Source of the DNA: Desulfovibrionaceae bacterium
GTDB taxonomy: Bacteria > Desulfobacterota > Desulfovibrionia > Desulfovibrionales > Desulfovibrionaceae
NCBI GenBank assembly: GCA_009773665.1
Contig: WSYE01000021.1
Location: forward strand, 1-62,436
Reading direction: 5' to 3'
Length of the DNA stretch: 62,436 nucleotides
The notes under the pieces are model-generated. The model was not told where the DNA came from. It ran no database searches and saw only the letters and a program-made list of their open reading frames with translations. Each line of letters opens with the position of its first letter. The first letter of the stretch is position 1. The position numbers and the translations under genes were made by a program. Positions 17,448 to 60,392 of the stretch are shown piece after piece.

Positions 17448-17520
17448 ATGCATCCTTTATAGTGTGGGCGGTGTCGACCGCCTTCATGCGCGCGAGGTTC
17501 GAGGCCAACCGCGGGCTCCC

Positions 17521-17628
17521 TCATGTGACGTTCTCAAAATTCGCTCACACGATGTGATGTCGTAAACCAAGAGAACCATTTATTTTATTCGTGAAATACA
17601 TGTTCATGCATTTCAAAAACTCGACACT
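17521..17628 (-). repeat. Structured intergenic element, copy 1 (mrp-pgsA gap)
   Basis: Read on the minus strand this 108-base element matches 59757-59863 (plus). The first 66 bases agree at 58 positions and the last part shares TTTTGAGAAC and a CAC-A-GA end. Hairpin 1 has CATG-AA-CATG at its heart and outer TGAAA/TTTCA arms. Then comes AATAAAATAAATG, then GTTCTC pairing with the distal GAGAAC around a variable inner hairpin, here TCACA-TCG-TGTGA with bulged extensions. Relative to copy 2, hairpin 1 carries an A-T to T-A swap and an A-T to G-T change, so pairing is kept. It starts 36 bases after the mrp stop and ends 73 bases before the pgsA ATG. Confidence 0.85.
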
Positions 17629-17664
17629 GTGCATGGGGCGAACATGCGACCGTATTCTTTGGTC

Positions 17665-43288: not shown

Positions 43289-43373
43289 GGGCACATTCGC
43301 TCCTGCCGCTTCTTCCCGTTCTTGAAATTGTGTTTGAAAAACATTTCATGTGATCCAAAAGCACGACATCAGT

Positions 43374-57194: not shown

Positions 57195-58877
57195 ATGCTC
57201 ACCATAGCCCGTTTCGTGCTGCTGGCCCTGGCCCTCGCCCTGGCCATGTCCGCATGCGCCCAGAAAAAGAAAGCCCCGCCCGCCGATCCCAGCGCACAGG
57301 GGCTCAGTCCCGGCGCGGCTGCGGACTACTATTTTCTGCTCTACCAGGAGCTCTCGCGCCAGGGCCAGCCAGCACAGGCCGTGCCCGTGCTGGAGAAACT
57401 CCTCTCACTGGCCCCCTCGCCGGAACTCTATCGGGACCTCGCCAACCTGCACTGGGGCCTGGGCGATCCGGACAAGACCAGGGCCGTGTTGCAAGAGGGC
57501 CTCGCCAGGTATCCCAACGAGAAGGTCCTGCACTTCTACATGGCCAACTCCTACCTGCTGCAACGCCGCTTCGAGGAAGCCTCGGAAGTCCTGCGCGGCT
57601 ATCTGGCTGCGCACCCCAAAGACCAGACAGCCAGCCAGGAACTCGGCGCGGTGCTGGTGGAGGCAGGACGCTTCCAGGAAGCCCTGGACCTTCTGGGTTC
57701 CGTCAGCAAGGACCGGCGCACCCCGGCCATGGCCTACTACGAATCGAAGGCCTACGCGGGCCTCAATAAGCGCAAACAGGCCCTGGACAAGCTGCGCCAG
57801 GCCCTGCGCGAGGACCCCAACCTGCTGGCCGCCTGGTCCGAACTGGCCTACCTGCACGAGCAGGCCAACGAATACCGTCAGGCCGAGGAAGCTTACCGCC
57901 GCATCCTGGACCTGGGCGAGGACGGCCCCGAGGTCTGGATCCGCCTCGTCCGCTTGGCCCTCAAGCAGAAGAACGAGGCCAAAGCCTTGCAGTTCATGGA
58001 GAAGGCCCCCAAAGACCGGACTTTCCTGTTCGAGGCCATGGGGCTCTTCATCGACGAAGGCTACCAGGACGGTGCGGTCAAGGTGCTTGAGCGCATGGCC
58101 CAGGACCAGCCCGAAAGCGCCGACGTGATCTTCATCCAGGCCATGATGGCCGTGGAAAAGGACAAGAACCTGGACAGGGCCTTCGACCTGCTCTCCAGGG
58201 TCCCCAAGACCAACGCGCTCTACGACAAGAGCCTCATCACCCGCATCCAGTTGGCCCTGGACACCAGCCAGTTCGAGCGCGCCGCCCCGCTGGTGGCCGA
58301 GGGCAAGGCCGCCTTCCCCGACCGGGTGGAGTTCTGGTTCCTGGAGGGCGTCTCCTACGACAAGCAGGGCGACCTGAACAAGGCCGCGCAGGTTTACGCG
58401 GAAGTACTGCGCAAGTGGCCCGACGACGTCGAAGGCATGTACCGCTACGGCGTGGCCCAGGAGCGCCTGAAGAACCGCACCGAGGCCATGCGCGTCATGG
58501 AGCTGATCCTGGCCAAGGACCCGAACAACGCGGATGCCCTGAACTTCGTGGGCTACGCCCTGGCCGAGGACGGGCGTGAGCTGGACCGCGCGGTGGAGCT
58601 CATCACCCGTGCGCTCAAGGTCAACCCGGACAGCCCCTACTACCTGGACTCCCTGGCCTGGGCGCACTTCAAGCGCGGCGAGATCAAGCAGGCCTGGGAG
58701 GAAATCCAGCGGGCCGTGACCAAGCCCATTGAAGACCCCACCATCTGGGAGCACTACGGCGACATCGCCAAGGCGCAGGGCAACAAGAAGGAAGCCGTGA
58801 AGGGATACCGCAAGGCCCTGGAGATGAACCATCCCAACAAGCAGGACCTTGAGCGCAAACTGGACGAACTGAAATGA
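57195..58877 (+). CDS. TPR lipoprotein
   Basis: 560 residues. Signal peptide MLTIARFVLLALALALAMSAC with lipobox MSAC; Cys21 is lipidated. The rest is about a dozen TPR units, with clear ones near 60-130, 200-235 and 380-520 (AMRVMELILAKDPNNADALN, FVGYALAEDGRELDRAVELI). Probably an outer-membrane scaffold protein. It starts seven bases after rpoH, and overlaps the next gene by four bases. Confidence 0.88.
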   Translation: MLTIARFVLLALALALAMSACAQKKKAPPADPSAQGLSPGAAADYYFLLYQELSRQGQPAQAVPVLEKLLSLAPSPELYRDLANLHWGLGDPDKTRAVLQEGLARYPNEKVLHFYMANSYLLQRRFEEASEVLRGYLAAHPKDQTASQELGAVLVEAGRFQEALDLLGSVSKDRRTPAMAYYESKAYAGLNKRKQALDKLRQALREDPNLLAAWSELAYLHEQANEYRQAEEAYRRILDLGEDGPEVWIRLVRLALKQKNEAKALQFMEKAPKDRTFLFEAMGLFIDEGYQDGAVKVLERMAQDQPESADVIFIQAMMAVEKDKNLDRAFDLLSRVPKTNALYDKSLITRIQLALDTSQFERAAPLVAEGKAAFPDRVEFWFLEGVSYDKQGDLNKAAQVYAEVLRKWPDDVEGMYRYGVAQERLKNRTEAMRVMELILAKDPNNADALNFVGYALAEDGRELDRAVELITRALKVNPDSPYYLDSLAWAHFKRGEIKQAWEEIQRAVTKPIEDPTIWEHYGDIAKAQGNKKEAVKGYRKALEMNHPNKQDLERKLDELK

Positions 58878-59758
58878 TTGCGGGAAGCTCCCGGATGAAC
58901 CTCGCGGCAACGCTGCGCACCGGCCTGCGCGCTGGTCTGCGCGCTGGTCTGCATTTCGGGCTGTGCGCCCTGCTCCTGGCCTCGCTCCCGCTTGCGGGCT
59001 GCGCTCCCAAGACCGGTGCGCCCGGAGCGCCTGACGCTTCGCAGGCCCAAGCCATGTGGACGTCCTTCGTGTCGGAGCCCGGCGAAAAGCCTGCGGCCTT
59101 CTCCATGTCCGCGAGCCTCAGCATCCAGAGCCCGCAGAAGTCCGCGCGCCTGCTGGTGAAGTTCTGGGGAAACCTGGAGCGCCCACTGCGCCTGGACCTG
59201 TCCACCGGCATGGGCCAGTCCTTCTCCCTGTGGCGCGAGGACTCCCTGGGCTGGCTGGCGGTCTACCCGCATTCCAACCAGGCCTTCACCCACCCGGACA
59301 CCAAGGCAGGCCTTTCGCGCCTGGGCATGCCCTTCCCGTTCACCCTGAAGGACCTGGCCTCCATCTCCTCCGGGCGCTTCGGGCTGATTCTGCCATCCAG
59401 CTATAAAAGCGTGAAAAAGACTGCCAAGGGGTATGAGTTCGCCTTGGCCCCGTCCTCCACGGTGGGTTCCGTCACCCTTGACTTCGAGGGGAAACCGATT
59501 CATCTCACCGGCCGGGGCATCGAACCCTGGACCGTGGAACTGGGCGACTTCGCCGCTCCCGAGGCCGGTCGCCCCCCCCTGGCGCAGCGCCTCACCCTGA
59601 CCACGCCGGGAGGTCTGCAAGTGATCCTGCGGACCAAGAAGATCGAACTTTTCGCAGCCCCCATGGACCTGTCGACACTGGAACTCCCTCTTCCGCCCCA
59701 GGCCAGGCACATCCCCCTGAACAAGGCCGGAGACGTGCGCGCACCGGAGCTGCCCTAG
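58874..59758 (+). CDS. LolB-like / DUF4292-type lipoprotein
   Basis: 294 residues. An arginine-rich N-terminus (a GLRAGLRAGLHFGL duplicated segment) leads into a hydrophobic stretch and lipobox LAGC. The mature part (SMSASLSIQSPQKSARLLVKFWGN, LSTGMGQSFSLWREDSLGWLAVYP) resembles the LolB fold, which inserts lipoproteins in the outer membrane. The match is by pattern only. Its ATG overlaps the TPR gene stop. The stop codon lies at the start of the second structured repeat. Confidence 0.75.
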   Translation: MIAGSSRMNLAATLRTGLRAGLRAGLHFGLCALLLASLPLAGCAPKTGAPGAPDASQAQAMWTSFVSEPGEKPAAFSMSASLSIQSPQKSARLLVKFWGNLERPLRLDLSTGMGQSFSLWREDSLGWLAVYPHSNQAFTHPDTKAGLSRLGMPFPFTLKDLASISSGRFGLILPSSYKSVKKTAKGYEFALAPSSTVGSVTLDFEGKPIHLTGRGIEPWTVELGDFAAPEAGRPPLAQRLTLTTPGGLQVILRTKKIELFAAPMDLSTLELPLPPQARHIPLNKAGDVRAPELP

Positions 59759-59863
59759 TGTCGCGTTATTGAAAAACATGAACATGTTTTTCAATAATAA
59801 AATAAATGGTTCTCTTGGCTTAGGTCCGTAACGTTTACGGACTTTTTTGAGAACACCACACGA
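59757..59863 (+). repeat. Structured intergenic element, copy 2 (before rpiB)
   Basis: The plus-strand partner of 17521-17628. Hairpin 1 (59768-59795) is a nearly perfect palindrome with ATTGAAAAACATG pairing with CATGTTTTTCAAT. AATAAAATAAATG follows, then the outer stem GTTCTC (59809-59814) and GAGAAC (59849-59854). Between them is GTCCGTAA/TTACGGAC (59824-59842) followed by six T, which looks like an intrinsic terminator. The inner hairpin differs from copy 1 while the outer stem is unchanged. The element starts within the stop codon of the LolB-like gene and ends 94 bases before the rpiB ATG. Confidence 0.85.
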
Positions 59864-59957
59864 GGACTTCCAACAGGCTCATGCAGGCAGTGGGATCTTC
59901 TCGATGTCGGTTTCGATTCAAGCAGCAACCAGCAACATCCAAAACCGGAACACAGCC

Positions 59958-60392
59958 ATGAGCACCCCCGTCATATTCGGTTCCGACCACGCCGGATTCG
60001 TCCTCAAGGAACAGCTCAAGACCTTCGTCGCCCAAATGGGCCACGAGGTGGTGGACGTCGGCACGGACAGCCTGTCCAGCTGCGACTATCCCCTCTTCGC
60101 CTTCAAATTGTGTGATCTCGTTCTCGAAAAGAACTGTCTTGGCATACTTATCTGTGGTACGGGCATGGGCATGTCCATGGCAGCCAACCGGCGTCCCGGC
60201 ATCCGCGCGGCGCTGTGCGCCAACGAATACCTGGCGCGCATGACCCGCCTGCACAACAACGCCAACGTCCTCTGCCTGGGCGAACGCTGGGTTGGGCCGG
60301 GGCTTGGCGAATCCATCGCCGAGACTTTCCTGAAAACTCAGTTCGAGGGCGGACGCCACCTGCGCCGCATCGAACTCTTCGACACCATCTAA
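59958..60392 (+). CDS. rpiB: Ribose-5-phosphate isomerase B
   Basis: 144 residues. RpiB interconverts ribose 5-phosphate and ribulose 5-phosphate. GSDHAGFVLKE, the catalytic Cys66 in ICGTGMGM and His99 in RLHNNANVLCLGER are all typical. The ATG at 59958 was chosen because homology starts there; an in-frame start at 59847 lies inside the structured repeat. It is followed 12 bases later by tkt. Confidence 0.95.
   Translation: MSTPVIFGSDHAGFVLKEQLKTFVAQMGHEVVDVGTDSLSSCDYPLFAFKLCDLVLEKNCLGILICGTGMGMSMAANRRPGIRAALCANEYLARMTRLHNNANVLCLGERWVGPGLGESIAETFLKTQFEGGRHLRRIELFDTI

Follow-up and report, generated by a model that had tools for sequence, protein, structure and literature searches.

What is a structured intergenic repeat of about 110 bp, and how did it come to lie in front of both pgsA and rpiB in the same stretch of DNA? 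The stretch analysed here (the window) comprises 62,436 nucleotides of a Desulfovibrionaceae contig. A first-pass annotation made from the letters alone had reported two full-length matching copies in it, and these are indeed present, at positions 17520-17630 on the minus strand (before pgsA; 111 bp) and 59755-59864 on the plus strand (before rpiB; 110 bp). The gene names come from the same annotation and presumably agree with the translations. A BLAST comparison of one copy with the other in the window's own genome returned the identity that had been given, 58 of 66 bases (88%, E 1.5e-17), and the spacings to the flanking stop and start codons were found consistent when checked by eye. Both copies had been said to lie just after an upstream stop codon; the pgsA-side copy starts ca. 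35 bases past that stop, and the rpiB-side copy begins within the TAG stop codon itself. The sequences flanking the two copies show no relationship by eye, as had been claimed, and thus the pair did not arise by segmental duplication. The annotation left a choice between a mobile non-coding element, a 3' UTR or terminator cassette and a leader RNA. The first of these was right, the second describes a location and possibly a side effect, and the third is unsupported.

The rpiB-side copy is complete, reads CTAG at its left and CGAG at its right end and scores 116.9 bits with our covariance model R1 (see below). Its left terminal inverted repeat, CTAGTGTCGCG, occupies positions 59755-59765, and the TAG at 59756-59758 within it is the stop codon of an open reading frame at 58874-59758; the right terminal inverted repeat, ACACCACACGAG, lies at 59853-59864. 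The predicted fold, together with pair counts over 36 copies, places hairpin 1 (15 pairs, loop GAAC) at 59765-59798; fold and pair counts likewise point to an inner stem formed by 59809-59814 and 59849-59854, and the fold puts hairpin 2, which this stem encloses, at 59822-59844, all on the plus strand. A simple terminator scan of positions 59600-60050 found none in this copy, though the predicted fold has a hairpin followed by T's. Hairpin 1 also contains a match to a σ70-like promoter on the plus strand (59769-59798; TTGAAA, spacer of 18, AATAAT; 10 of 12 positions), where shuffled sequences average 0.1. The pgsA-side copy (92.1 bits) has altered ends, ACAG and TGAG, and its hairpin 2 departs from the consensus. 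A weak match at 43300-43372 on the minus strand (E 0.012) may be a third copy, decayed and shortened.

The window's genome (G000) is 66% complete, and its closest relative is referred to as G003. BLAST with one copy against G000 gave 42 rows, two of which were reverse-strand echoes, leaving 40 places; 36 of these were aligned with MAFFT, four with unclear ends being omitted. The alignment yielded the consensus CTAGTGTCGCGTTTTTGAAAAACATGAACATGTTTTTCAAAAACAAAATAAATGGTTCTCTTGGTTTAGGTTCANAAANTGTATGAACGTATTTTGAGAACGCCACACTAG and was used to build model R1. Searching the own genome and its relatives with this model, a check of the kind that the first-pass annotation had named, retrieved further copies in every one of the seven genomes of the genus. 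G000 had 97 matches, G003 had 99, and the others had 27, 14, 8, 3 and 3; no more than 150 candidates were scored in each genome, and some places count twice, once per strand. In the wider bacterial family, matches were found in 15 of 119 genomes, spread over 3 of 44 genera. Stretches fetched at E values up to 1e-6 represent 111 distinct places, 60 in G000 and 51 in G003 (112 rows, one place having been fetched twice). Relaxing the threshold to 0.001 added 17 places, 4 and 13, respectively (21 rows, of which three were reverse-strand repeats and one had already been counted). There are thus 64 distinct places in each of the two genomes, which bears out the expectation of many copies per genome. 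All 111 places are shorter than 200 bases, 105 are at least 104 bases long, and none holds a protein-coding gene. The annotation had recognised no described family, and Rfam gave no match to the element either. Scanned at curated scores, the whole window contained only tRNA and SRP RNA matches, and around the pgsA-side copy, at E values up to 10, a single sR19 match (E 0.25) fell outside the element. The tRNA gene and the small SRP RNA gene adjoin each other at 2378-2571. A pattern describing the element's interior had no match in the genome contig collection, from which records near the window may be absent.

The copies share one plan: an outer inverted repeat, then the 15-pair palindrome of hairpin 1 and, after an A-rich linker, hairpin 2 enclosed in an inner stem. 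A second subfamily has the left half in common with subfamily 1, differs from it in the right half and is younger, with copies up to 97% identical. At the median, the nearest copy in the same genome is 81% identical, and by this measure most copies are old. In 19 copies from another genus, g25, and one from g53 the ends are the same and the hairpin sequences different. Each of 30 listed copies of these two genera has CTAG on at least one end, in a listing biased towards such ends, since copies were found via the model or via exact-end patterns. Stretches of 52 and 61 bp carry both ends and look like internal deletions.

Evidence that the element moves comes from a comparison of the two sister genomes, in which G000 copies with their flanks were located in fetched G003 sequence. 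Copies L021 and L091 of G000 read CTAG...CTAG, and the orthologous site in G003 is just CTAG. A third site (L041 1960) is a nearly clean empty site. Out of nine unshared sites compared, two are exact CTAG and one is near to it, and the other six have been deleted, rearranged or replaced; L009, which would have been a tenth, was omitted, its flanks having matched 184 kb apart. The pgsA site belongs to the six, as its G003 ortholog has no element and is yet not a clean empty site. So does L024, where G003 has a copy nearby in the opposite orientation (C4:244220-244572), so that one intergenic region carries oppositely oriented copies in the two species. G003 has an ortholog of the rpiB copy. Where the homologous stop codon lies, G001 and G004 read CCCCTAGG, a CTAG without the element, G002 and G006 have TAG, and G005 has TGA. 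Among the G003 places, which were fetched in part only, are orthologs of at least 15 of the 64 G000 places; ten of these belong to the first 60 (the downstream flank of one, L043, is rearranged) and five were added, three of them matched on a single flank.

A source for such movement is suggested by the ends. The IS630 transposase domain PF13358 is present in 9 of 20 genomes searched, and at 14 of 30 inspected PF13358 loci the element's ends, with up to two mismatches to the 12-base end, face each other 1.1-1.2 kb apart. These loci are not independent: the eight sequences shown are of about five kinds, and several are copies of one IS. In G086, from a different genus within the family, the IS630 element is 1129 bp long, is bounded by CTAGTGTTGCGT...ACGCAACACTAT and has an open frame of 353 codons. 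Its right end is identical to that of subfamily 2 in 20 of 20 terminal bases, and subfamily 1 has 16-19 of 25 positions in common with the end of this IS. Among the seven genomes of the genus, an intact transposase of the G086 type was found in none of six (including the 66% complete G000), and G003 has only a relic, in which 47 of 56 residues (84%) are identical to the G086 transposase.

Because of its ends, its target and its empty sites, we place the element with IS630-type MITEs. Directly observed are shared ends, a CTAG target and empty sites, and we consider it very probable that the repeat is a non-autonomous MITE of the IS630/Tc1-mariner type. An IS630 element elsewhere would supply a transposase recognising GTGTSGCGT...ACGCSACAC; this enzyme would excise the element and reinsert it in a CTAG target at its TA, which would be duplicated. 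IS630 and ISY100 duplicate TA on insertion according to PMC2170065, which also cites Tenzen and Ohtsubo 1991, a paper whose title gives the CTAG preference of IS630. We infer the action of the transposase and, as in IS630, the duplication of TA rather than of CTAG; on the sequences themselves, TA duplication and duplication of the whole CTAG palindrome are indistinguishable. A 4-base CTAG duplication is printed for the possibly IS5-type MITEPsy1 in PMC3189936, and this counts against the TA-duplicating MITE reading. So does the fact that the terminal TA frequently has its inner base changed (CTCG at the left, CGAG at the right), mostly at the end farther from the stop codon: the right (3') end is CGAG in 21 and CTAG in 24 of the 105 copies that are 104 bases or longer. 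Plain TA duplication leaves a changed base at one end unexplained; imprecise joining or avoidance of CTAG is perhaps the cause. Finally, most copies are old and few are shared with G003 (even L021 and L091, with clean empty sites, have best same-genome matches of only 82% and 76%), so that losses or missing sources must be invoked, which also counts against the MITE reading. Two further points weigh in the same direction: no intact relative of the G086 transposase was found in the seven genomes of the genus, and six of the nine unshared sites are not cleanly empty.

Could another enzyme have moved the element? REP/REPIN sequences are abundant intergenic pairs of hairpins that need a Y1 transposase, RAYT, and the present element resembles them in having two hairpins within ca. 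110 bp, an intergenic location, many copies and conserved ends outside the hairpins. We nevertheless regard mobilisation by RAYT as very improbable and rejected it, since the Y1_Tnp domain (PF01797) is absent from all seven genomes of the genus and no element copies lie near Y1 genes at the 14 loci scanned out of 19. The domain occurs in 6 of the 20 genomes searched; it is also absent from G107, where the model gave 19 matches (a few places being hit on both strands), and the CTAG target and IS630 ends likewise speak against REP/REPIN. Even less credence, next to none, can be given to an IS1595-type transposase. In G030, a 1.1-kb segment (C1:104034-105145; L216 2533-3645) has the same outer facing ends around a transposase with PF12762 and PF12760 domains. 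However, the IS1595 element in it has inverted repeats of its own, GTGGCTAT...ATAGCCAC, with the 8-base repeat TTTCTTAA on both sides (by eye), and because of these repeats we take it to be nested in a copy of the MITE.

Gene context was analysed with a home-made, unvalidated codon-usage caller that is blind to genes cut by insertion. Out of 111 places, 43 lie between genes that are both sense to the element, 27 between genes that are both antisense, 39 between converging and one between diverging genes, one being ambiguous; a neighbouring gene's 3' end faces the element at 110. No place lies inside a called gene, insertion-cut genes being invisible to this caller. After removal of 10 G003 orthologs, 101 places remained. 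At 65 of these, a neighbouring gene's stop codon is formed by an end of the element, and at three an overlap with a called gene exceeds 4 bases. The stop-codon end is the left one (gene in sense) in 48 cases and the right one (antisense) in 17 (binomial p 1.5e-4), and it reads CTAG in 35 of 48 and 12 of 17 cases, respectively. Outside the elements, 154 CTAG sites of the same loci comprise 51 stop codons, 66 intergenic sites and 37 sites inside called genes. In the window as a whole (1-62436) CTAG is strongly avoided, with 19 sites against ca. 213 expected from base composition.

The sequences offer an explanation for this distribution. An in-frame TAG in the target is already a stop, and as the first base of the element is G, the TA and this G read TAG again; the insertion therefore keeps the stop codon intact. 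Insertion into xxC-TAG, by rebuilding the stop, should thus be nearly neutral at gene ends, and copies would accumulate there. The gene-end distribution itself is seen with our own gene calls; selection would account for it. The excess of sense copies, 48 to 17, is not predicted by the MITE reading and counts against it. Destruction of the stop codon by right ends was considered as its cause and rejected: no gene ran far into a right end among the 101 places (three small overlaps), and where no stop codon is involved, left ends show changed inner bases about as frequently.

In transcripts, the two hairpins would form at the 3' end of the mRNA from the upstream gene, which raises the question of whether the host keeps the element as a structured RNA (a 3' UTR, a transcription terminator or an RNase target), mobility being its origin only. 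The facing 3' ends and the sense excess would fit such a function, as would changes on both sides of pairs, which occur in 55 cells against 24 expected from shuffles (MAFFT, 36 copies) and in 222 against 82 when 111 rows are aligned to the model, which biases the alignment towards the structure. G-T outnumbers A-C on the sense strand by 60 to 28 in hairpin 1 and 82 to 18 in the inner stem; the margin is smaller for hairpin 2 (92 to 79) and for the outer stem (78 to 59). These counts come from copies that are related and hence not independent. The fold of the rpiB-side copy has a z of -5.2, and SPRITE repeats of pneumococcus are suggested in PMC3049150 to be co-opted terminators. Covariation between copies can, however, come from different founders, and the fold of the pgsA-side copy reaches only -1.3. 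When 10 orthologous pairs were compared in place, paired columns had changed nearly as often (66/730, 9.0%) as unpaired ones (42/365, 11.5%), and single changes broke 22 pairs, kept 19 and restored 14, with four double changes keeping them. The central motif, with 3/150 changed in these pairs, seemed to be under strong selection, which was dismissed as weak in a set of 14 (19/224 against 173/1270, p 0.039), whose criterion leaves out L043, one of the first ten. RUP, a MITE with no known host function, is likewise over-represented between converging genes (PMC3049150). Judged by their pairing, the two hairpins are real, and the pairing is conserved between copies and not clearly in place; retention by the host as a structured RNA therefore appears unlikely to us. 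We hold equally doubtful the idea that the element acts as a portable 3' end, which, by landing in sense in a stop codon that stays intact, would give the upstream gene a new structured mRNA end that is kept, so that dozens of genes would have had the termination or stability of their transcripts rewired differently in two sister species.

Among described elements, the closest relative of our IS630-type MITE is RUP of pneumococcus. As given in PMC2229807, it is a non-coding repeat of 107 bp with about 108 intergenic copies, IS630-like TIRs and a TA target, and it is thought to be moved by IS630-Spn1 (PMC2229807, PMC3049150). Both are short, intergenic and non-coding, with TIRs of the IS630 type and a TA-containing target. 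RUP differs in sequence, in its TIR, given as 9 bp (PMC2229807), in copies described there as highly conserved, whereas the present family is diverged, in its use of stop codons, and in having IS630-Spn1 as a partner, whereas no intact partner IS was found in the genomes of our genus that were searched. The Correia/NEMIS elements of Neisseria, of about 107 and 155 bp with TA at the ends and stem-loop transcripts, are similar in size, terminal TA and stem-loops; according to the same source they differ in a 24-bp TIR and in an RNA described as an RNase III substrate (PMC2229807). MITEPsy1 of Pseudomonas syringae is 100 nt long and targets CTAG or YTAA, but it has its own 18-nt TIR, duplicates 4 nt and is possibly related to IS5 (PMC3189936). 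IS630 and ISY100 are autonomous, whereas our element has no transposase gene. The SMR-A repeats of Haloquadratum, compared by description only, measure about 110 bp, have inverted ends, up to 54 copies and a mobiliser given as unknown; they target IS605-type elements, with no target duplication reported (PMC3119063).

The kind of element is thus known, and the family and its stop-codon habit tentatively appear undescribed: no description of either was found in the literature, a weak negative given that the search took in few subscription papers and not ISfinder. The family is not described in the available parts of PMC7325037 and PMC2246112, and a literature search with the end sequence gave, among the matches listed, primer papers by title. 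If the MITE reading holds, a transposon with an avoided four-base target can persist by way of stop codons, its insertion leaving the protein unchanged, and annotators should not take such copies for leader RNAs.

The two ends also occur well outside this bacterial family. The pattern CTAGTGTSGCGTN{60,90}ACGCSACACTAG retrieved 32 stretches from genome contigs of bacteria and archaea, most of them with interiors unlike that of the window's element. The record titles name Solidesulfovibrio, Methanosarcina, Methanotrichaceae, Euryarchaeota, Acidobacteria, Bipolaricaulis, Polaromonas, Spirochaetaceae, Luteimonas, Eisenbacteria and Actinopolymorpha. Since archaea and several bacterial phyla have this end pair in common, IS630-type MITEs of this sort would seem to form a widespread group, one that a search for the ends alone can recover. 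Twelve of the 32 stretches (within L229-L257) are from Methanosarcina and relatives and appear to be archaeal MITEs, mostly of 88 bp, with the same ends.
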